Shown here piece after piece: positions 1,704-11,633 of a DNA stretch of 28,628 nucleotides. Origin of the DNA: a virus. Location of the stretch: IMG/VR virus record IMGVR_UViG_3300013102_000060, positions 1 through 28,628 of that record. The stretch is one strand, 5' to 3'. The notes under the pieces are model-generated. The model was not told the origin of the DNA. It saw only the letters and a list, made by a program, of their open reading frames with translations, and searched no databases. Within the stretch, counting starts at the first letter, position 1. Each line of letters opens with the position of its first letter. The translations under genes were made by a program, and so were the position numbers.

Positions 1704-1940
1704 TCAAAAGGTCTTCGCGACGTACTCGAACGCAGCCTCAAACGTGTCCCATTCGGTTACTAGCCCGCCCGCGGCTCGTACGGCCGTGAAGGGCCTGTAA
1801 TCCTGGTCGTCCTTGATGATCAGGGCTATTTGTACTTCACCTGCACTACTCAGCCGGTACACCTGCCATTCTTGCGAGTCTGGGTCGTGGCGCCGAGCAA
1901 TGTGCTTGACCCCGCGGTACGTCATCGTTGGTTCGCTCAC
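1704..1940 (-). CDS. Hypothetical small protein coupled to the XRE regulator
   Basis: 78-aa protein, not recognised. It reads as a small mixed alpha/beta domain: a strand-rich first half (WQVYRLSSAGEVQIALIIKD) and a C-terminal helix ending EAAFEYVAKTF. No membrane segment or Cys cluster. Its ATG overlaps the TGA of the XRE gene (ATGA), so the two are translationally coupled. That makes an immunity or partner role (antirepressor, toxin-antitoxin-like partner) conceivable but unproven. It is followed by a non-coding region and a terminator. Confidence 0.65.
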   Translation of the reverse strand: MSEPTMTYRGVKHIARRHDPDSQEWQVYRLSSAGEVQIALIIKDDQDYRPFTAVRAAGGLVTEWDTFEAAFEYVAKTF

Positions 1941-2209
1941 GAGCGTGCACCTTTGGTGCCGGGAAGCTCATCTGATTCGCCTAACAAATACGCGAGAGGA
2001 ATCCCCAGAGTCTCTTCGATCTTGAAAAGGTGTTCTGGCATCAGCCGGACCTCGTTGTTCACTAACCGACTGAAGTTGGGCTGAGACATGCCGAATCTTC
2101 GTGCTGCCTCTGCCTGACTAATTCCTAGGTCACTGAGCGCGGCTCGGATCCGAGCTGTCATTAGTCGCGAAGCTGAAGGCTTTCGCTTCGAGACATCTTC
2201 GTCTTCCAT
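1937..2209 (-). CDS. XRE/Cro-C1 family DNA-binding regulator
   Basis: 90-aa DNA-binding protein with a single Cro/C1-type helix-turn-helix. The motif ISQAEAARRFGMSQPNFSRLVNNE (about residues 30-53, quoted with its turn at RFGMS) has the canonical Q-x-x-x-A pattern. The helix after it (HLFKIEETLGIPLAYLLGE) is the typical fifth helix of XRE domains. There is no C-terminal peptidase or dimerisation domain, so it is shorter than a LexA/CI-type repressor. Position next to the candidate attP and integrase suggests the immunity repressor or a Cro-like switch protein. The ATG at 2209 has only a distant AGGGAG; an internal ATG at codon 17 lacks a ribosome site. Confidence 0.85.
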   Translation of the reverse strand: MEDEDVSKRKPSASRLMTARIRAALSDLGISQAEAARRFGMSQPNFSRLVNNEVRLMPEHLFKIEETLGIPLAYLLGESDELPGTKGARS

Positions 2210-2651: not shown

Positions 2652-2819
2652 GTGGAAGTTACCTTGACCATCGAGAACGCTGAGGGTGAGCAAGGCTCTG
2701 TGCAAGCTGCGGGCGCCGACTATGCATCCGCTTATGCCGCGGCCCGGGAACTCATCCCCGAAGGTTGCCGGGCCATCGCCATCCGCACCAACAACACCCA
2801 GGAGACCAGAGGCCAATGA
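2652..2819 (+). CDS. 55-aa hypothetical protein, first gene of plus-strand operon
   Basis: Short gene starting with GTG at 2652 and ending at the TGA at 2817-2819, which overlaps the next gene's ATG (ATGA). The product begins EVTLTIENAEGEQGS, contains an Ala-rich helix (ADYASAYAAARELIP), and then a strand CRAIAIRTNN. The pattern strand-helix-strand and the tight coupling to the next gene argue that it is real despite its size and weak ribosome site. No function recognised. It could be a small double-stranded-RNA-binding-like or regulator fold, but that is only a shape resemblance. Confidence 0.62.
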   Translation: MEVTLTIENAEGEQGSVQAAGADYASAYAAARELIPEGCRAIAIRTNNTQETRGQ

Positions 2820-3499
2820 CGACTGAGTATGCCGAGAATGACGCCATCCCCGCGGGTGTCCCCACGCAGGGGCACAAGGACCCGGACGGTAACGAGTGCC
2901 GCGGGCGGTGGATCACGGACACCAGCAATAAGGGTAAGCCGCAGGCGATCATGGTCGAGCGGTTTGTTGAGACGAAACCAGAGGTCAGCGAATGGGATAT
3001 CTGGATCGAAGCCAAGGAAGGTATCGGCGAAGCGGAGAAGCTAAACCCGAAACCGATCAAGGCTCCAACGTTCTTCGAAGCCGCCTCCGAATACATGTGG
3101 AAGGATAAGCAGCTTGCCCGGCCGGTCGGCCCCAACGGCAAGAAGGCTCGAAATCTTCTGCATAAGCAGGGCGGCAATTGGTACATGCGTTCCTGGGATC
3201 ACCCCAAAGACGAAATGGGCCGACGTCTCTGGCCTACCGAAGATCAGGCACGAGGCCTGACCATCTGGAACGTTTGGGTCGAGGGCCAGGCGGTCGGCGA
3301 AGAGCGCGAGCCTGCTTCGAAGGTTAACGGCCCGCACATCGTGGCGGATTCCTTCGACAAGGCTGTGCAGAAGTACATCGCGACCCTTGGCCCGGTGGAA
3401 GCATCAAACTTCGCCAAGGATGAAGAGCGGAACGTCTGGACCTACCAAGGGCGGAAGCTCTACCCAACCGAAGGACGCGCCCGCGTAACCTTCGGATAA
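2816..3499 (+). CDS. Hypothetical protein with an internal tandem duplication
   Basis: 227-aa soluble protein, not recognised. Two copies of a unit of about 85 residues can be seen. Each has an aromatic strand (EWDIWIEA near residue 60; IWNVWVEG near 150), then FFEAASEYM or SFDKAVQKYI, then a W-containing strand and the end motif RLWPTEDQAR or KLYPTEGRAR. The start ATG at 2816 overlaps the stop of the 55-aa gene, and a longer frame from 2765 has no ribosome site. The gene ends 11 bases before a strong hairpin. Transcribed against the neighbouring immunity genes and the late operon, it may belong to a lysogenic or early transcript. No catalytic motif is visible. Confidence 0.75.
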   Translation: MTTEYAENDAIPAGVPTQGHKDPDGNECRGRWITDTSNKGKPQAIMVERFVETKPEVSEWDIWIEAKEGIGEAEKLNPKPIKAPTFFEAASEYMWKDKQLARPVGPNGKKARNLLHKQGGNWYMRSWDHPKDEMGRRLWPTEDQARGLTIWNVWVEGQAVGEEREPASKVNGPHIVADSFDKAVQKYIATLGPVEASNFAKDEERNVWTYQGRKLYPTEGRARVTFG

Positions 3500-3510
3500 A
3501 TGCGACTCAT

Positions 3511-3548
3511 AATGGCCTCAACCCTCGGTATTGAGGGTGGAGGCCATT
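3511..3548 (+). terminator. Hairpin terminator of the plus-strand operon
   Basis: AATGGCCTCAACCCTC at 3511-3526 pairs with 3533-3548 (one mismatch) across a six-base loop, starting 11 bases after the stop codon. A T-tract is weak, as is common in actinobacterial terminators. It separates the duplicated-domain gene from the epimerase gene. Confidence 0.72.
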
Positions 3549-3564
3549 CGCGCTTCGGGTAAAG

Positions 3565-3591
3565 TTGACCCTTGGTAAATTGGCCTAAAAA
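3565..3591 (+). promoter_or_regulatory. Possible promoter of the epimerase gene
   Basis: TTGACC at 3565-3570 and TAAAAA at 3586-3591 are spaced 15 bases apart, between the upstream terminator and the gene. The -35 is good and the -10 mediocre. A dedicated promoter is expected because a terminator precedes the gene. Confidence 0.35.
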
Positions 3592-3601
3592 TGGGGAAAC
3601 A

Positions 3602-4927
3602 ATGAGTGCTGCTGGCACCTACATGACTAACGAGCAAGAGGTAGGCTTGCCGCCGCTCCGAGCTGAGCGGAAAGCGATCTGGGACTATTACCGGATCGAG
3701 TTCCTACCTAACGGATACCCGGGCCGCCGCACCGATGGCGTGCTGATGGCTCACCCCATCTACGGCCCATACGTCATCACTGACTACATCACCCAGTACA
3801 GGATCACGAAGGACCAACTTTTCCTCGACTCCGCGTTCAGGGTCGCAGACGCCGCCGTGGAGCAGATGCAAGACCTGCAAGGCAGCTTGGTCTTCATGTA
3901 CGACGAAGAAAAGGCGAAGGTTTCCAGCAAGAAGGGGACTTGGTACAGCGGGCTGACTCAGTCGCGCTATGTGGACGTTTTCGCAAAGCTCCTGAAATTC
4001 CCAGGCGGGGACCGGTTCCGCGAGCCGCTGTCCAGGATTCTCGCGAGCCTGACGATCCCCGTTGACAAGGGCGGTGTTGCCCGGTACACGCCCAACGGTG
4101 GACTCATCATCGAGGAGTACCCGGCCACTTTCCCGAACTGCACGCTCAACGGGTGGACCACTGCGACGACCATCATCAAGGATCTCGCCGTTTCGACCAA
4201 CGACGAAAGTCACTGGGAAATCTTCAGGCAGTCCGTCCGCGGCATGGAAAGCATCATCTCGCTCTACGACGTGCCTGAGTTGGCGAACTCACGCTACAAA
4301 CTGGAAGGCGACGCAACCTTCCGGCTGGCGGCGGCCGGATCGAACGTCGAGGTTCAGGACGTCCAAGTTATGGTCCCGGGGAGCGGTACTTTTGACGCGA
4401 ACGTGGACGGCGACGAAGCCGGCGAGGCGCTAAAGGCTGGCCCGGTCGAAATTGTTGATGGAAGCTTTGAGAACATCAAGGTTCGGATGAGCCGGTACTC
4501 CTGGCCGGACCCGAACAAGATACTGCTGAAGGTTGTTGCCGAGCAGGAAGGGCAGTTGAGCGTTTCCATCGGCGACGCGGATTACAACCCGTTTGGTAGC
4601 GTGCCAAAGATCAAGGGCTGGCGGCAGCTACAGGAGTTCACTGTGGAGGCTGGCGAGAATCTCATTGAAGTTGAGGTTCCCTGGATCGCGGCGGAGATGA
4701 TCGCGCACCCGACGAACTTCGCGAAGAAAATCACTAACCGTCAGTTCAACGTCTACCACTACATCCACATCGACACGATCAGCAAGATTCTCGAGCAAAG
4801 CAGCAGCAATATTCTGCGCTACTACCTCGACAAGTGGACCGAAGCGCCGAACATCTGGCCCGGGCACCCGGCCTATCAGGATGAGCGCCTCATGATGGAA
4901 CGCTTCGACATGCTGAAGCACAAATAG
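3602..4927 (+). CDS. D-glucuronyl C5-epimerase-like protein
   Basis: Predicted polysaccharide-modifying enzyme of 441 aa related to the D-glucuronyl C5-epimerase C-terminal family (PF06662, GLCE). That family inverts C5 of glucuronic acid residues in a polymer to iduronic acid. Seen in the sequence: a helical (alpha/alpha-toroid-like) N-terminal half with WYSGLTQSRYV (114-124) and GGLIIEEYP (166-174), the latter matching the Glu-Tyr catalytic signature. It continues with TLNGWTTATTIIKDL (181-195). A strand-rich segment (about 235-375) looks like an inserted beta-sandwich, and the C-terminal LRYYLDKW (405-412) returns to the helical fold. No signal peptide or membrane segment is visible. The ATG at 3602 has GGGGAA upstream; a TTG at 3572 has none. 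It has its own terminators on both sides and converges on a deacetylase gene. Family assignment is from motif recognition; the substrate is unknown. Confidence 0.78.
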   Translation: MSAAGTYMTNEQEVGLPPLRAERKAIWDYYRIEFLPNGYPGRRTDGVLMAHPIYGPYVITDYITQYRITKDQLFLDSAFRVADAAVEQMQDLQGSLVFMYDEEKAKVSSKKGTWYSGLTQSRYVDVFAKLLKFPGGDRFREPLSRILASLTIPVDKGGVARYTPNGGLIIEEYPATFPNCTLNGWTTATTIIKDLAVSTNDESHWEIFRQSVRGMESIISLYDVPELANSRYKLEGDATFRLAAAGSNVEVQDVQVMVPGSGTFDANVDGDEAGEALKAGPVEIVDGSFENIKVRMSRYSWPDPNKILLKVVAEQEGQLSVSIGDADYNPFGSVPKIKGWRQLQEFTVEAGENLIEVEVPWIAAEMIAHPTNFAKKITNRQFNVYHYIHIDTISKILEQSSSNILRYYLDKWTEAPNIWPGHPAYQDERLMMERFDMLKHK

Positions 4928-4932
4928 ATAGC

Positions 4933-4974
4933 ACAGGAACGCCCCCGCTCTGAAATAGAGTGGGGGCGTTCTGT
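4933..4974. terminator. Bidirectional terminator between epimerase and deacetylase
   Basis: A GC-rich stem (AACGCCCCCGCTCT against AGAGTGGGGGCGTT, flanked by ACAG/CTGT with one bulged G) encloses a five-base loop. It starts five bases after the epimerase stop and ends six bases before the deacetylase stop, so it serves both convergent genes. Confidence 0.85.
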
Positions 4975-4979
4975 TGCTA

Positions 4980-6287
4980 TTAGACAGGTCGGAAGTGTGG
5001 CTCGTCGAGGAACTCGATGGACCCGCCGGACTCCCGTCCGATAGTGGCCCGAATGGACAGTGTGGATAGATCGGCGGGCAAGGTTACGTGCATCCGACAA
5101 TCGACCGGGGACCCGTCCCCGGGAAGCGTGAACAGCCGTTCCTTCTTGAACCGCGTGTCATCTCCCGTGTCATGAACCTGCAAGCGAAGCGTTGCTTGGT
5201 CGCCGCCTGACGCCCTGGCTGGGACTGCCATCTCACAGACGCCCCCCATTGCCCATCCAAAGCGTGTGGCGAGGAAGATCCCTTGTGTCATGGGCCTCGC
5301 CATGTCAGATGCTGTCAGGAGGTGTTTCCCGTCCACCGTCCGCAGCGAGTATCCTGAACGTCCTCCCCAGCCCTCAAAGTCGTTGACGAATTGGGTGTTC
5401 GTCAGGAGGTCTTCACGTCTGGAGTGCGTTGCGTCAGCAACAGCCATGCCCGACACTGTCAGGACTTCGAGCCGGCCAGCCGACCGCTCCGCTGCCAGAT
5501 AGGCCAAGATCGTCTCGAAGTCTTCAAGCGCGATGCCTTTGGGGGAGTCGGCTTCCCCGGGGTGCATGTAGAGCGTTATTCCGCGGCCGTGCCGCTGCGT
5601 TTCCCGGATGATGTCTATCGTTCTCTCCACCGGCCGTCCCTCGACGGTCATGTGGGATGCGCCCAGTTTGATACGCCCGTCCAGCGGTTGCATGAATCCA
5701 GAGCTCTTGCCGTCACTGAAAGCATGACTGTTTTGGATGGCCGTGCCTGCCAGCGTGAAGAACGCACCAACGCCTCGGCCCAGATTGAATCCGTCGTAGT
5801 TTGAGGATCCATTGACCATGAACCCGTCAACGACAAGCTTGGGCCCGACGTATTCCTGCAGTCGTTGCTGACCGCCCACGATGGCGTCGATAATTCCTGC
5901 CTCGTCAGTATGAGGGCGGTGGTCGCCAGCGTGGTTCCAAACCTCAATGCCGTCATAAAGAGCCATGTCAGTGACTTCTTGCCACGTGACTTGGTTGTTT
6001 TGTTCGAAGGCCATGTTGTCCGCGTTCAAACAAATGCTGCCAGGCATCCTGTATTTCCGCATCAGCGGAAGCACTCTGTCACGCATAGCGTTCAGCCAGT
6101 GATCAAACCTCAGCGATACGACTGCTTTACCTTGGACGCCAAGAGCTCCCCGGCGCATATAAGCCTGCTGCTGAAGTATTGCGTGCCGGGCCCCGGCGTA
6201 CGGCAATAGAGCGGCTGGCGGCAAAGGACTCTCGCGCCCACTATTTTCTGCAGCTGAGGTGACCAGCTGTGTAATTTCCCCATTCAC
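4980..6287 (-). CDS. Polysaccharide deacetylase-like protein with C-terminal beta domain
   Basis: Predicted metal-dependent carbohydrate deacetylase of about 435 aa. The NodB-like core keeps the metal-binding elements: RFDH (60-63, Asp62) and NHAGDH (118-123, His119 and His123, compare the family HSxxH). It also shares a later YMHPGEAD segment with the fibre-fused deacetylase of this phage. From about residue 300 on, after SRREDLLTN, a strand-rich region beginning FVNDFEGWGG resembles carbohydrate-binding beta-sandwiches. The frame runs up to a GTG at 6341, but that codon lies inside the upstream terminator, so I prefer the GTG at 6287, six bases after a TACATT box (leaderless). It lacks a tail-attachment domain. 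It converges on the epimerase gene. Substrate unknown: N- or O-acetylated surface glycan is likely. Confidence 0.77.
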   Translation of the reverse strand: MNGEITQLVTSAAENSGRESPLPPAALLPYAGARHAILQQQAYMRRGALGVQGKAVVSLRFDHWLNAMRDRVLPLMRKYRMPGSICLNADNMAFEQNNQVTWQEVTDMALYDGIEVWNHAGDHRPHTDEAGIIDAIVGGQQRLQEYVGPKLVVDGFMVNGSSNYDGFNLGRGVGAFFTLAGTAIQNSHAFSDGKSSGFMQPLDGRIKLGASHMTVEGRPVERTIDIIRETQRHGRGITLYMHPGEADSPKGIALEDFETILAYLAAERSAGRLEVLTVSGMAVADATHSRREDLLTNTQFVNDFEGWGGRSGYSLRTVDGKHLLTASDMARPMTQGIFLATRFGWAMGGVCEMAVPARASGGDQATLRLQVHDTGDDTRFKKERLFTLPGDGSPVDCRMHVTLPADLSTLSIRATIGRESGGSIEFLDEPHFRPV

Positions 6288-6293
6288 TGCACC

Positions 6294-6320
6294 AATGTAC
6301 CGCCCGACTTGACTTGACAA
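6294..6320 (-). promoter_or_regulatory. Candidate leaderless promoter for the deacetylase gene
   Basis: Minus-strand TTGTCA (6315-6320) and TACATT (6294-6299) are 15 bases apart, and the GTG start follows six bases after the -10. It lies immediately downstream of the late-operon terminator. No ribosome site precedes the GTG, consistent with a leaderless mRNA, which actinobacteria translate well. Confidence 0.45.
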
Positions 6321-6330
6321 TAAACGACGA

Positions 6331-6362
6331 AAGACCCCCACCCGGCGAGGGGTGGGGGTCTT
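6331..6362 (-). terminator. Strong terminator ending the late/lysis operon
   Basis: AAGACCCCCACCC at 6331-6343 pairs perfectly with 6350-6362 (13 bp, six-base loop), four bases after the holin-like gene's stop. On the minus strand TCTTTCGTCGTTTATT follows. Confidence 0.88.
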
Positions 6363-6366
6363 GTCA

Positions 6367-6702
6367 CTAGTCTTTGGGTCGCTCTCGGGAGTCGAAGACT
6401 CTCAGTCCGTCGTTCTCGATGGTGACATGGCCGCTTACAGCTTCGTGCTTGCCTTCATAGGCGGGCGTCTTCGCGGAGCCGAGCACAGCGCGGATCAACC
6501 AATCCGGAAGCCGCGGTTCCAGCCAGCGCCAGAACGCATACCAAGCGCCGATCAGGATGGCCGCGACAATGGCGGACAGCGGCGTGCCATACTCTAGCAG
6601 CGCCTCGCGGTGTGGTTCGAGGATCGGCAGGAGCCCGATGGCCCACCCGATGAACGCGCCCCACAAAGCCGGGACGATGGTGCGGAGAATGGATGTGAAC
6701 AT
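6367..6702 (-). CDS. Two-helix membrane protein, probable holin
   Basis: 111-aa protein with two hydrophobic segments near the N-terminus: residues about 4-27 (SILRTIVPALWGAFIGWAIG) and about 41-60 (TPLSAIVAAILIGAWYAFW). A charged, hydrophilic tail follows. Two transmembrane helices plus a charged C-terminus, last in the lysis gene cluster and close to the endolysin, fit an actinophage holin. A longer frame extends to 6909, but the ATG at 6702 follows AAAGGAC and the upstream gene's TGA by one base, so 6702 is chosen. The four-helix protein at 7706-8089 is a competing holin candidate. Confidence 0.68.
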   Translation of the reverse strand: MFTSILRTIVPALWGAFIGWAIGLLPILEPHREALLEYGTPLSAIVAAILIGAWYAFWRWLEPRLPDWLIRAVLGSAKTPAYEGKHEAVSGHVTIENDGLRVFDSRERPKD

Positions 6703-6703
6703 G

Positions 6704-7108
6704 TCAGTCCTTTGTGATGTCGATGTCGGATGCGGCTTGGATCGTGACAGTGGCCGTGAGGTGCGCGAGGTTGTCATCGACGGCGTCCTTGATGGCAGCT
6801 TTGATGGCTTCCGGGTCCGCGCCGACTCCGGCCGAGAGCGCGGAGATCGCGGCCACGAGACCCGCGATAGTCCCCTCCAAGCGGAGAAGAATCGATTTGG
6901 AATCCGCAATCTCCTGATCGAGGTCGATCAAATCCTTTCCTCGAATCACTTTGGATTTCACGACCCGGCGAGGGATGTCATCGATCAGCGCCTGCAAGGA
7001 GGCCCCGTAGAGAGCGGACGGGCCACCATTCGCGAGAAGGTCGACAACGAAATCTAGCTTCTTCTGGTTGGACATGCTGGCGGTGGGCACAACTGGGGCT
7101 TTGGGCAT
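6704..7108 (-). CDS. Hypothetical protein of the lysis cluster
   Basis: 134-aa soluble protein between endolysin and holin-like genes. The middle is predicted helical and coiled-coil-like (LIDLDQEIADSKSILLRLEGTIAGLVAAIS). The C-terminal half has Asp/Ala-rich helices and ends with short strands (VTIQAASDIDITKD). No membrane segment is long enough, though an AGLVAAISALSAG stretch is mildly hydrophobic. The ATG at 7108 has AAGGAG six bases upstream and is preferred over one at 7132 inside the endolysin gene. Such proteins occur beside endolysins in Arthrobacter phages. It could be a minor structural or lysis accessory protein, but nothing in the sequence decides this. Confidence 0.68.
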   Translation of the reverse strand: MPKAPVVPTASMSNQKKLDFVVDLLANGGPSALYGASLQALIDDIPRRVVKSKVIRGKDLIDLDQEIADSKSILLRLEGTIAGLVAAISALSAGVGADPEAIKAAIKDAVDDNLAHLTATVTIQAASDIDITKD

Positions 7109-7118
7109 AGCTGGCTCC

Positions 7119-7709
7119 TTACGGGAGGGCAAGATTGAGGTCGATGAAGAACTGCTGATCCGCCGTGTAGACGGGCGCCGGTGCGGTTTCTCCGGCGTAC
7201 TCGACGGAGCCCGCGAACAGATCCTCGGGATTGCTACGGCCGTAGTAGCGGCTGTTCAGCACGTAGCCGTCACGCAGGATCTCGAAGTGCAGGTGCGGCC
7301 AAACGGAAGCGCCAGTGGAACCGGACAGGCCTATGACCTGGCCCTCGCTGACCCACTGGCCCACGGACACGCGAGCGGCGCTATCCAGGCAGTGGCCGTA
7401 GATGCCGATGAATGAGCCGTGATCGATGACATAGCCGTAACCGAAGAAGCTAGGCAGGATCCACCAAGGATTTGTGGCGTACGTGCCGCCGAGCCTCCCG
7501 ACGTGGAGTACCTTTCCGGATGTGACGGCGTAGACCGGCGAGCCCGACGCGGCACCGTAGTCCTGCCCGGTGTGCCCGTCTGGCTGGTAGTTGCCGTACA
7601 GGTAGACGTAATACCCCATGCCAGAGTTGGGATTCGAGTTCGGTACGACACCGGCCGTGGCACCAGATCCGAAGTCTTGCGTCAGCGGCGCATCTACTGG
7701 TCGCCTCAT
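7119..7709 (-). CDS. M23-family metallopeptidase endolysin
   Basis: 196-aa zinc endopeptidase that would cleave peptide cross-bridges of peptidoglycan for host lysis. The LytM/M23 signatures are complete: HTGQDYG (His46, Asp50) and HLHFE (His139, His141), with a further His106 in IYGHCL. The usual beta-rich segments lie between them (VYAVTSGKVLHVG, GQWVSEGQVIGLSGSTG). No signal peptide is seen, so release depends on the holin. The C-terminal 40 residues (after PEDLFAGSVEY) are low-complexity plus a short tail, too short for a wall-binding domain. It overlaps the upstream membrane-protein gene by four bases. A virion-associated role is less likely, given its place next to holin candidates. Confidence 0.9.
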   Translation of the reverse strand: MRRPVDAPLTQDFGSGATAGVVPNSNPNSGMGYYVYLYGNYQPDGHTGQDYGAASGSPVYAVTSGKVLHVGRLGGTYATNPWWILPSFFGYGYVIDHGSFIGIYGHCLDSAARVSVGQWVSEGQVIGLSGSTGASVWPHLHFEILRDGYVLNSRYYGRSNPEDLFAGSVEYAGETAPAPVYTADQQFFIDLNLALP

Positions 7710-8089
7710 TTGCGGTCCTTTCGAGGCGCCCAGTCGGGGCCGAGTCTGAGTTGGAAGAACAGGACCGCGAGCCTGACAGCAGCCACGAGGACGGCACTAT
7801 AAATGACGATCCGGAAGATCTCACGTAGGGGGGTCGCGCCAAAGAGACCGCTTGTGATGATCAGGATGAACAGTGCTGCGAGCGAGCCGAGCAGCATCAT
7901 GAGCGCCCGGCCTAGCCGGGTCTTCCACCACTCTGGATGGCAGACCCAATAGATGATCGGCAGGGCAACCCAGAACGAGCCAGCCACGTAGCCGATGTAC
8001 AAGCCGGGCAGGCCGAGCATCGAATACGTGGTCAGAAACCCCGCTCCGATCAGGGCCCAAGTGAACGCCTTGAAGATGGTCCGCTTCAC
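7706..8089 (-). CDS. Four-helix membrane protein of the lysis cluster
   Basis: 127-aa membrane protein. Hydrophobic segments lie at about 9-24 (FTWALIGAGFLTTYSMLGL), 26-49 (GLYIGYVAGSFWVALPIIYW), 62-83 (ALMMLLGSLAALFILIITSG) and 90-112 (IFRIVIYSAVLVAAVRLAVL), followed by a basic tail PRKDRK. It overlaps the endolysin start by four bases and the upstream small gene by four bases, so it is part of the lysis operon. A role as holin, second holin or lysis regulator fits the position, but the family is not one I can name with certainty. Confidence 0.7.
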   Translation of the reverse strand: MKRTIFKAFTWALIGAGFLTTYSMLGLPGLYIGYVAGSFWVALPIIYWVCHPEWWKTRLGRALMMLLGSLAALFILIITSGLFGATPLREIFRIVIYSAVLVAAVRLAVLFFQLRLGPDWAPRKDRK

Positions 8090-8328
8090 GTGGCCCCTCC
8101 TAACTTCCTCATAATCTGTGCTTCGATAGCCGGCGCGAATCCATTGCGAATATTCACCTCGCGCAGATTGGTTACTACCTGCGTTGCCTCGGCCCGCTGC
8201 TCCTGAGCAGCGCGGTGAGCGTCCACCGCATGCTCAAGAGCAGCCTCAGCCAACGTGTGATCCACAGGCTCCAACTGTGGGAGTTGGCGGACTGACGCCC
8301 ACCTAGCCCGTAGCTTGCTGAACAGCAT
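8086..8328 (-). CDS. Small helical phage protein
   Basis: 80-aa mostly helical protein: a basic start (MLFSKLRARWASVRQ), then a long amphipathic helix (HTLAEAALEHAVDAHRAAQ) and a conserved-looking end (NLREVNIRNGFAPAIEAQIM). It closely resembles the small helical proteins next to lysis genes in many Arthrobacter and Streptomyces phages. The ATG at 8328 follows a G-rich GGGGGGTG site and overlaps the end of the preceding membrane-anchored gene in another frame. A longer frame from 8427 is Arg/Ser-rich and is a shadow of that gene. Function unknown. Confidence 0.68.
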   Translation of the reverse strand: MLFSKLRARWASVRQLPQLEPVDHTLAEAALEHAVDAHRAAQEQRAEATQVVTNLREVNIRNGFAPAIEAQIMRKLGGAT

Positions 8329-8632
8329 GCGAGACACCCCCCGCCGCGTTCTCCTGGATGGCAGACATGACATGTGCCGAGAACTTTGCGTTCTCGATGA
8401 AGTCACTGTTCGTCTTGGCGAGGTCACTGTTTGTTTGGTTCGCCAGCGTCGCCGCTGACTGCCAGTTGTTCCGGTCGGTGACGAGTGCGGCGATTTGATC
8501 CTCCAGCACGCGGACTACGTCCATGTGCGCGGCCTTGGTCCACAACCTGCCCGTGAACACCAAGTAGAAGACCGCAATCGTCGCCGCCAACGGGCTGGCG
8601 AGGTTTACTACGGCGGGAATGCCGTCAATCAT
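8303..8632 (-). CDS. Single-pass membrane protein with coiled-coil tail
   Basis: 109-aa protein with one transmembrane segment at about 12-29 (SPLAATIAVFYLVFTGRL) followed by a long helical, coiled-coil-like region rich in Asn, Asp and Gln (VVRVLEDQIAALVTDRNNWQ). That makes it a bitopic protein with a soluble helical domain. The ATG at 8632 has AGGAGG four bases upstream, immediately after the fibre gene's stop. Its 3' end overlaps the next gene by 26 bases. Membrane topology and position between fibre and endolysin suggest a spanin-like or holin-accessory part; no family is claimed. Confidence 0.72.
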   Translation of the reverse strand: MIDGIPAVVNLASPLAATIAVFYLVFTGRLWTKAAHMDVVRVLEDQIAALVTDRNNWQSAATLANQTNSDLAKTNSDFIENAKFSAHVMSAIQENAAGGVSHAVQQATG

Positions 8633-8640
8633 TGGGCCTC

Positions 8641-10446
8641 CTAGAGGACATCGCAGAGAAGCTGCTCGTAGGGGCCGACGATCTTCAGCCGGCCAGCGGT
8701 TTCTTCTGCCTTGACGTAGTCCAAGATCGTGATGAACGTTGCCGTCGTGATGTATCCCTCGGTGTCCAAGCGGGACGGGTGCAGCATGAACTGCAGTGCC
8801 CGCTTTCCCGTCTCCGCTGCCTGAATGACGGTCTGCGCCTGGGCGAGCGTGTACGCGTCAATAGTGAGGTGGCCGAGGCCTTGACGGACCATTCCGTCCT
8901 GCCAGCGGGTAGTAGCGCCGATGTAGCCGGCAGCCACAGGGTGGTGGGTCAGGATGAAGCGGCCGCCGTCCGTGGCGTAGAACTGTTCCAACGTCTGCCC
9001 GTCGACGAACCCGCCGAAGTCAGTGCCCGTGGACCCGGGAGGGGCAAATCCGTCGATCTGGGCTGCTGGGATCTGCGCCCGAAGTTCCGTGAGCCCGTCA
9101 AGGATCGCGGCTTTCCATGACGCTTCGGAGTTGTCCCCGGATCCGTGGTCCTTGGAGTGGTTCCAAATCTCGGCCAACCCAGCGGTAACCCAGTCGTTCA
9201 CCATGGAGGCGGTCACTCCCACGTTTTCAGTGCGATCCCACTGTCCGGAGCAAAGCGCCAGAGAGTACTTGAAGTTGCGGGACTCCATCTGCGCACGAAC
9301 CAGAGCGTTGAAGTTCGCAAGCCCATGATCGAACCGGAACGCCAAGGTGGCGGTGGTGACCTTCTTTCGGCCGCCGCGGCGGCGACTGAAGTCCTGAATC
9401 AGGACTGCATTACTCAGGCCGGCGTCACTGACAACAGTTACCGGAGTTGTGCCTCCACCCGTCCCAAGCTGCTTCCAAGCAATCCCAGCCCAACCAGCCA
9501 ACACTGTGGAGGTTCGGATGAACACGCGTCCGTCAGCCGTTGTGAGTCGCTGCAGCGCAACGCCCGACTTGGACGTGACGAAGTTTTCTACGGTGATCGC
9601 TCCCGAACTCACTCCGGCTGGCACGCCAACGAGTGCGCTGGGGTTGGTGCTGGTCCACACACCTGTTTCACGGAATGTGTCCAGGTTTGTGCCGTCCAGC
9701 AAGGGCCCACGCAACCACGCGCCGTAGCCCCATGCCGTCCACGACGTGTTGGTGCTGGCTCGCGTCGTCCGGAAGTATCGATCCGGCGGCGCCGTCGTGG
9801 AGACGAGCGCGAGCACTTCCTGGCTCGTGAAGTTCCCGGCTTTCGCCTTGCCAACAAACAGCGAGCCCGTGAAGCTTCCTGCCGGCCAGTTCAGCAGCGT
9901 CGCAGCGACTGTCGTGGACGGGCACGTGTACAAGCCAGGGTCGCGGATGTTGTTGATGTCCTCGCCGGTAACCAATTCGCGCTGCGGCAGGCCGCGGTAT
10001 TCGATGGCTGCGCTCGGAGCGGAGGGGTTCCAGTTGGTGGCACTGTACGTGCCAGCGGATGTGAAGGCTACCTTGGCGGTTACCACGTCACCGTCCGGGG
10101 CAACGACCTGCTGCCCAGCGGAGTAGGGCGTGTTCGCTTTCCACCGCGGGAGTGCCTGGACAGCCAAAGCCGTGGCCTGGGACGCTACGCCTTCGACCGT
10201 TCCAAGGCGGGTGTCCTGCGTGGACGGGTTCCAGTTCGCCGCGTTATACGTAGCACCAGACGTGAAAGCCACCTTCGCCCGGACAGGATCACCGTTCGGG
10301 GCGATGGCGTACTTGTTGGCCGCGTAGAAGGTGTTTGGCTGCCAAGCGTCCAGTCCTCCCGGACTGCCGGCGGCACCCGTGTCGCCTTTGTCGCCCTTAG
10401 AACCGCGGAGGTTGGCGACGTAGACCCATGCCCAGTTTGCGACCAT
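8641..10446 (-). CDS. Tail fibre/spike with pyocin-knob repeats and polysaccharide deacetylase domain
   Basis: 601-aa modular receptor-binding protein. Residues 1-14 are hydrophobic and aromatic, and 15-31 are a collagen-like Gly-x-x run (GSKGDKGDTGAAGSPGG). Two copies of a chitin-binding-like unit follow at about 34-75 and 101-142, each with A-P-(N/D)-G-D, AKVAFTS and NWNPS. Residues about 155-330 hold two knob-like modules of the pyocin-fibre type (GLYTCPS, then GVWTSTNPS). From 365 on comes a NodB-like deacetylase with RFDHG (371-375, Asp373) and NHSKDH (429-434, His430/His434), and a distal FMLHPSRLD. It probably binds and de-acetylates the host surface polymer during adsorption. The ATG overlaps the upstream stop by one base and has AGGAGT upstream. 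Confidence 0.87.
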   Translation of the reverse strand: MVANWAWVYVANLRGSKGDKGDTGAAGSPGGLDAWQPNTFYAANKYAIAPNGDPVRAKVAFTSGATYNAANWNPSTQDTRLGTVEGVASQATALAVQALPRWKANTPYSAGQQVVAPDGDVVTAKVAFTSAGTYSATNWNPSAPSAAIEYRGLPQRELVTGEDINNIRDPGLYTCPSTTVAATLLNWPAGSFTGSLFVGKAKAGNFTSQEVLALVSTTAPPDRYFRTTRASTNTSWTAWGYGAWLRGPLLDGTNLDTFRETGVWTSTNPSALVGVPAGVSSGAITVENFVTSKSGVALQRLTTADGRVFIRTSTVLAGWAGIAWKQLGTGGGTTPVTVVSDAGLSNAVLIQDFSRRRGGRKKVTTATLAFRFDHGLANFNALVRAQMESRNFKYSLALCSGQWDRTENVGVTASMVNDWVTAGLAEIWNHSKDHGSGDNSEASWKAAILDGLTELRAQIPAAQIDGFAPPGSTGTDFGGFVDGQTLEQFYATDGGRFILTHHPVAAGYIGATTRWQDGMVRQGLGHLTIDAYTLAQAQTVIQAAETGKRALQFMLHPSRLDTEGYITTATFITILDYVKAEETAGRLKIVGPYEQLLCDVL

Positions 10447-11207: not shown

Positions 11208-11633
11208 ATGAGAAAACTTGGGGGAATCGTCCTTTTGACGGCCTTTGCACTCACCGCATGCTCGACACCAGCAACCACGACATCGACGGTCCCGGCGACT
11301 TCCACAACCGACGTCGCGCAGGCCGCCAAGATGGCGCCGTTGCTCACAGTGCCGGAACCGTCGCCATCTCTCGCGCCGGAATTCAGCGAACCGACAGCCC
11401 GCGAGAAGTTCCTTGTGGGCGTCAAGAAGAACTGGAGGGAAAGCAGTATCCCTTCGGACGATGTCCTCGTGCAGCGTGGCGTAGAGTCATGTGCTCTTTT
11501 TGACCAAGGCCTGACAATGGGTGAGATCGGCGAGCGCGGTGGCAGCACAATCGCTGATTGGGATAATGCTGCGGCTATCGCGATCTATGCCAGCCGCGTC
11601 TTCTGCACGCAGCACAATACCGACAGCCACTAG
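11208..11633 (+). CDS. Phage-encoded lipoprotein (DUF732-like), probable moron
   Basis: 141-aa lipoprotein on the opposite strand to the surrounding late genes. A basic N-terminus, hydrophobic stretch and lipobox LTAC (Cys18) give a type II signal peptide, followed by a Thr/Ser/Pro-rich linker (20-60). The folded part has two Cys (95 and 133) in an arrangement like the DUF732 domain of actinobacterial secreted proteins: VQRGVESCALFDQG and ASRVFCTQH. It should be anchored outside the cell membrane. Its stop overlaps the fibre gene's stop region (convergent, four bases). Independent orientation and a private promoter suggest expression in the lysogen, with superinfection exclusion as one possible role. 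The DUF732 link is by cysteine pattern only. Confidence 0.74.
   Translation: MRKLGGIVLLTAFALTACSTPATTTSTVPATSTTDVAQAAKMAPLLTVPEPSPSLAPEFSEPTAREKFLVGVKKNWRESSIPSDDVLVQRGVESCALFDQGLTMGEIGERGGSTIADWDNAAAIAIYASRVFCTQHNTDSH

Follow-up and report, generated by a model that had tools for sequence, protein, structure and literature searches.

What would a phage do with a gene resembling the C5-epimerase of animal heparan sulfate synthesis that faces, across a single hairpin, a gene for a polysaccharide deacetylase? This question is raised by the virus record IMGVR_UViG_3300013102_000060 of IMG/VR, a 28.6-kb stretch of DNA (28,628 nucleotides, referred to here as the window) in which the minus strand carries the late genes, ordered from terminase to lysis. 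An earlier reading of the letters alone (the original prediction) had described the two genes as an insulated cassette with heparan-like chemistry. In the analysis presented here, the surface sugar coat of the host is probably redecorated by the phage. For the fuller account, in which a temperate siphophage of soil Arthrobacter carries a cargo (moron) island for lysogenic conversion of the host capsule with superinfection exclusion, we see about even chances. The genes at the center of the argument are as follows.

3602-4927, plus strand: predicted D-glucuronyl C5-epimerase of the long form, whose catalytic tyrosines are separated by a beta-rich insert (PF06662, AlphaFold model, catalytic residues)
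3554-3601, plus strand: promoter or leader sequence upstream of the epimerase gene, also present at host copies (alignment against shuffled sequences)
4980-6341, minus strand: stand-alone CE4/NodB-fold deacetylase with a C-terminal carbohydrate-binding-like beta-sandwich (PF01522, phrog_11373, AlphaFold model)
8641-10446, minus strand: second deacetylase-domain protein, a tail fiber with a collagen-like N-terminal part (phrog_11373, E = 2e-156)

Identity and origin of the C5-epimerase

The open reading frame (ORF) of the epimerase can start at TTG 3572 or, preferably, at ATG 3602, and its sole profile match is PF06662 (E = 1.9e-20; 73.6 bits against a curated cut-off of 23.3). In sequence, the nearest PDB entries are those of the zebrafish and human enzymes. 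The AlphaFold (AF2) model, with a mean pLDDT of 87.1 and a pTM of 0.87, takes the alpha/alpha catalytic fold of GLCE, the animal glucuronyl C5-epimerase; the top five PDB matches are all animal GLCE structures (VIA Z = 20.9-21.3, root mean square deviation = 3.5-4.0 over 252-259 residues), and the next-best fold scores Z = 15.5 (Foldseek E = 1e-6). The catalytic residues of human GLCE are E499, Y500, N510, Y560, and Y578 (PMC13308652). All five have counterparts in the window protein, namely E172, Y173, N183, Y232, and Y385; the spacing from E172/Y173 to N183 is the same as in the human enzyme, and Y232 and Y385 are assigned from the motif and the family alignment rather than from superposed coordinates. 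A beta-rich block (strands 235-359) lies between Y232 and Y385, and the protein is regarded as a member of a long-form subfamily because this insert also occurs in bacterial relatives. The plus-strand gene of the original prediction is, by profile, model, and residues, a D-glucuronyl C5-epimerase, with a predicted conversion of glucuronic acid (GlcA) to iduronic acid (IdoA). According to PMC13308652, characterization among bacterial enzymes of this kind is limited to a single one. Hydropathy reveals neither a signal peptide nor a transmembrane stretch, and the enzyme is most likely cytoplasmic, given the lack of a signal peptide.

The closest relatives overall (71% identity) come from two strains, Arthrobacter sp. 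18067 and P. aurescens TC1 (Paenarthrobacter), and Agrococcus proteins are 55-56% identical. In strain 18067, the gene lies in a capsule cluster together with two heparinase II/III-like proteins, glycosyltransferases, a UDP-N-acetylglucosamine (UDP-GlcNAc) 2-epimerase, a UDP-sugar dehydrogenase, and an ATP-binding cassette (ABC) exporter; the Agrococcus cluster is similar except that it lacks the heparinase II/III match. The long form is rare, being present in 4 of 395 Micrococcaceae genomes, with three more matches that are weak and partial. In the tree, the phage protein groups with those of strains 18067 and TC1 with support of 100/99. Approximately 48 bp upstream of the gene are conserved with three host copies (L008, L009, and L011), for each of which 0 of 2000 shuffles aligned as well, and the blastn alignment of the epimerase region to the host starts at 3558. 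This comparison of proteins and flanking DNA shows that the epimerase was, as judged from its relatives, captured from a Micrococcaceae capsule cluster along with its upstream region. The pairwise nonsynonymous divergence (dN) is approximately 0.21 and the synonymous divergence (dS) is 1.4-1.6; the low dN relative to dS indicates that the protein has been kept functional by purifying selection. The TC1 copy (L009:10001-11326) is 93% identical to that of strain 18067 and is itself an orphan; a MarR-like/SelO region and a TPR gene flank it, and capsule genes are absent from the 10 kb around it.

No viral relative of the epimerase was found by tblastn of 50,697 phage records or in 2.9 million viral contigs by single-sequence and profile-pattern scans, which can miss distant relatives. 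A fold search of BFVD returned no match at E < 0.001, and no published phage C5-epimerase was found in the literature searched.

The deacetylase and its tail-borne relatives

The deacetylase matches PF01522 with 29.6 bits (cut-off 23.1) and the PHROG tail family phrog_11373 with E = 1e-68. Its model (pLDDT 82.3) adopts the NodB fold, and the PDB matches are CE4 deacetylases and carbohydrate-binding modules; matches to Cry proteins in the same search most likely reflect the carbohydrate-binding-like domains and were set aside as a guide to function. Translation could begin at GTG 6341, TTG 6320, or GTG 6287. The last of these, which is preceded by a TACATT hexamer, may be the start because residues 1-47 are modelled as disordered. 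The conserved residues are D80, H81, H137, H141, and H260, among which H137 and H141 form the HxxxH of motif 2 and H260 is the histidine of motif 5. On the other hand, the Asp-Asp of motif 1 is D80-H81, so that the catalytic base is retained while the metal-binding aspartate is replaced by histidine. All aligned members of the subfamily have the same D-H pair, except one (L078 9983-11260) with D-D. The protein therefore combines a NodB-like fold with an altered metal site; the minus-strand polysaccharide deacetylase that had been predicted is confirmed as to its ORF, profile, and fold.

The phage relatives of the deacetylase are the C-terminal parts of long tail proteins, and the closest relative known is such a part (61-63% identity), taken from a prophage tail protein of 737 aa. 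Several host relatives carry twin-arginine (Tat)-like signals, and one lies close to a UDP-GlcNAc 2-epimerase gene. The window protein has neither a tail module nor, by hydropathy, a signal peptide. Because the family consists mainly of tail proteins and exported host enzymes, N-deacetylation of GlcNAc is one possible activity among several. The tail fiber at 8641-10446, which the original prediction did not mention, shares 29% identity with the stand-alone enzyme over 250 aa. When the epimerase-bearing genomes were searched for the window deacetylase, a single match (63%) was obtained, in Arthrobacter sp. 18067; it is the tail protein of a prophage that is identical to viral contig L077. The contig from which L077 was taken equals the window in length (28,628 bases) but differs from it in sequence, presumably by coincidence. 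This strain thus has both elements, the epimerase in its capsule cluster and the deacetylase relative in its prophage. The same prophage carries a 592-aa gene (L077:13455-15233) that faces the late operon and is weakly related to asparagine-synthase-like enzymes.

The cargo site and its surroundings

The portal protein of the window is 84-87% identical to those of the Arthrobacter globiformis phages Anekin, Seahorse, and MidnightRain, of which MidnightRain belongs to cluster AY and is described as likely temperate (PMC10871062). The left end of the window resembles the integration region of phage Bauer (78% DNA identity). Contamination of the contig by host DNA was considered and rejected; since phage genes flank both sides, the epimerase and deacetylase genes sit within the phage genome. 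The remaining features of the region are listed below.

1937-2209, minus strand: helix-turn-helix repressor-like gene on the opposite side of the cargo (PHROG transcriptional repressor families; this end of the window matches Bauer)
2796-6325, no strand: cargo island between the conserved gene at 2257-2795 and the conserved late-operon terminator
2816-3499, plus strand: cargo gene (ORF) without assigned function (phrog_26055, E = 1e-6)
3511-3548, no strand: hairpin upstream of the epimerase, of uncertain terminator status (z = -4.2 on the plus strand and -5.5 on the minus strand)
4933-4974, no strand: bidirectional terminator between the convergent genes (hairpin energy and terminator scan)
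6331-6362, minus strand: late-operon terminator (z = -6.0/-5.5), with the deacetylase beyond it

In the Arthrobacter phage MargaretKali (L073), the terminator at 6002-6038 is followed after a gap of 6 bp by a gene region that starts at 6045 and matches 2265-2795 of the window. The matching flanks in the window are separated by 3.5 kb, which is occupied by three genes: 2816-3499, the epimerase, and the deacetylase. The related phage L087 has the same flanks with different cargo, including a DUF6270 protein. The site is thus variable, as is typical of lysogenic-conversion cargo, since it is empty in MargaretKali, otherwise filled in L087, and outside the late operon; the deacetylase itself counts as cargo because the conserved late terminator separates it from the late operon, a position that also weakens its assignment as an ordinary late tail gene. 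A search of the phage records gave no match to the product of 2816-3499. The DUF6270 protein of L087 (L087:13173-13931; PF19786, E = 1e-62) has similar ORFs, as read by eye, in the host loci L052 and L054.

The two genes converge, as predicted, on a very strong hairpin: the segment 4925-4985 folds with -42.2 kcal/mol (z = -10.3) on the plus strand and -35.1 kcal/mol (z = -7.8) on the minus strand, and its stem of 17 pairs is top-ranked in the terminator scan. The placement of the cassette between the lysis genes and the integration and immunity genes, insulated from both, also holds. Hairpins exist at both outer sites where terminators had been proposed, and that at 6331-6362 is kept in L087 (84% over 45 bp) and in MargaretKali, but that at 3511-3548 lacks a T-run and is not called by the terminator scan. 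The proposal of a candidate promoter for each gene was not confirmed, as the epimerase -35/-10 site at 3565-3592 is one of 3 sites in the region, against a chance expectation of 2.6, and no site was found for the deacetylase gene. The conserved 48 bp are better evidence of a regulatory region than the scan. An operator-like motif common to other capsule genes was also sought there, and no regulon emerged; the only two further matches to the upstream element, located in the window and in L050, have four mismatches each.

The same region was read in 21 related Arthrobacter phages. In 19 of the 21, the late genes end with one whose annotation reads carbohydrate esterase, hydrolase, glycoside hydrolase, or deacetylase, several with an Mtd_N domain. 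In 16 of those 19, the opposite-strand genes facing it encode glycan enzymes: GDSL esterases, Acyl_transf_3 proteins, hexapeptide transferases, an alpha/beta hydrolase lipoprotein, or proteins resembling Wzy_C (with scores below the curated cut-off). A single type of GDSL gene accounts for most of the 16, in several phages as judged from the annotation only. Auxilium and Tiff81 have no tail enzyme at that spot and no facing glycan gene either. In Seahorse (L004), the tail hydrolase (7324-9408) and the facing lipoprotein (9405-10232) are homologous (38.5%, E = 3e-19), and the enzyme on the tail may thus also be displayed by a Seahorse lysogen. The two GDSL proteins of Kukla are likewise detectably related, and Gorpy (L093) has in this region a NodB deacetylase with an export signal (5768-7129) beside a hexapeptide acetyltransferase. 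These neighbors, together with the host relatives in capsule clusters, agree with the surface-polymer role that had been proposed. Elsewhere in the window, a plus-strand lipoprotein-like ORF (11208-11633; MRKLGGIVLLTAFALTACSTP...) lies within the minus-strand tail operon, with a weak match to PHROG 658, and is a possible second cargo gene.

Roles of the two enzymes and known systems

According to the lysogenic-conversion account, the epimerase, captured with its upstream region and expressed in the lysogen, would most likely act in the cytoplasm on a glucuronate-containing polymer before its export by an ABC transporter, turning GlcA units into IdoA, and the stand-alone deacetylase would most likely deacetylate that polymer as well. 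Such a modified capsule would then change or hide the receptor of phages with deacetylase tails, including that of the tail protein at 8641-10446, and superinfection exclusion would be the likely benefit. That a strain with a capsule epimerase hosts a phage whose tail carries the closest known relative of the deacetylase suggests a shared polymer and is a hint that the deacetylase may act on a polymer open to C5-epimerization, although this link comes from a few genomes that were chosen for having the epimerase. Several other points weigh against the account as well. The metal-binding aspartate is histidine in nearly all of the family, which leaves deacetylase activity likely rather than certain; the host epimerase clusters include none with an adjoining polysaccharide deacetylase; the count of 16 of 21 phages is not independent because most of the facing genes are one esterase type; and the epimerase, known from a single viral record, could be recent neutral cargo, though selection and divergence oppose that.

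The two enzymes may instead serve separate functions, with the deacetylase acting as a particle or late protein that deacetylates the receptor polymer when the phage adsorbs or is released, and with the epimerase as the sole conversion gene. The late-direction reading of the deacetylase gene and a family annotated as tail, the closest member being part of the 737-aa tail protein, speak for this, as do the related phages, in which a tail enzyme is encoded last among the late genes and faces the conversion gene; nevertheless, the gene lies past the conserved terminator without a tail module, and a tail deacetylase is already present at 8641-10446, so that we hold this division of labor to be possible but doubtful. 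A narrower form of the lysogenic-conversion account follows heparan maturation, in that cytoplasmic N-deacetylation of GlcNAc would precede C5-epimerization and yield an IdoA-rich capsule with partly free amino groups. Both enzymes are cargo without signal peptides, and the host clusters with UDP-GlcNAc 2-epimerase, UDP-sugar dehydrogenase, ABC export, and heparinase II/III-like proteins would suit such a polymer. However, GlcNAc is a presumed substrate, the host relatives of the deacetylase are exported enzymes, and the two-enzyme pathway did not hold up as a recurrent unit: none of the 395 Micrococcaceae genomes has both genes, and the pair was found in no other phage, the epimerase itself occurring in no other phage record or viral contig. 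The coupled pathway is a minority reading because the pair recurs neither in host clusters nor in phages, and we consider it unlikely; equally unlikely is that the prophage installs a two-enzyme heparan-like step whose iduronate coat is unusable by deacetylase-tailed phages. The original prediction had made co-occurrence in related phages its own test, and there the specific pair is missing while the general arrangement, with other glycan enzymes in place, is kept. Neutral or decaying host-derived cargo of no benefit to the phage would fit the single known occurrence of the epimerase, but the reading frame and catalytic residues have stayed intact through approximately 29% protein divergence, with a low dN/dS, a conserved upstream region, and hairpin insulation, which makes this explanation quite improbable.

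Prophages are known to alter the surface sugars of their hosts through the addition of glucose or acetyl groups. A C5-epimerase would reshape a sugar that is already in the chain and need no donor molecule, a chemistry unreported for phages in the literature searched. If the heparan-like two-enzyme reading is true, the window would hold the first phage-encoded C5-epimerase and an example of lysogenic conversion by sugar stereochemistry. The finding suggests that IdoA is a constituent of some Arthrobacter capsules, and the phage-borne epimerase offers a testable activity. A glycan enzyme that faces or follows a receptor-modifying enzyme also suggests an idea of matched entry and exclusion, which can be tested in Seahorse, Kukla, Faja, Gorpy, and EvePickles.

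Animal GLCE (PDB 6HZZ and 4PW2) and the bacterial PF06662 enzymes have in common with the window epimerase the helical catalytic-domain fold, the WYSGLTQ-like and EEYP...LNG motifs, and the five catalytic residues. Unlike GLCE, the window enzyme is phage-borne and has its catalytic tyrosines 153 residues apart (18 in the human enzyme) around a beta-rich block of approximately 130 residues, an arrangement that it shares with the bacterial capsule relatives. Similar to the CE4/NodB deacetylases (PF01522; PDB 2C71 and PdaC 6H8L), the window deacetylase has the fold, the catalytic aspartate, the HxxxH metal motif, and the C-terminal histidine motif; its subfamily differs in the histidine at the metal aspartate in nearly all members, in an unclear motif 3, and in the carbohydrate-binding-like C-terminal domain. 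The serotype-converting and O-acetylating genes of prophages, such as the Gtr systems, Salmonella A3/A4, and the Klebsiella prophage acetyltransferases, likewise encode enzymes that modify the polysaccharide of the cell surface and the sensitivity to phages, whereas the chemistry predicted here is the stereochemical inversion of a uronic acid in the polymer, with a putative effect on the host. Prophage-encoded acetyltransferases and capsule-deacetylating tail esterases have both been described for Klebsiella phages (PMC13123978). The tail deacetylases and esterases of temperate phages, such as G7C gp63.1 and the Klebsiella SGNH receptor-binding proteins (PMC13123978), also deacetylate host polysaccharide, whereas the window deacetylase is stand-alone and outside the late operon. 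Heparan sulfate maturation, in which NDST acts before GLCE, employs the same two activity classes, deacetylase and C5-epimerase; in contrast, the window has no sulfotransferase, and its pair, for which substrate, order of action, and coupling are presumed, is unclustered in hosts.

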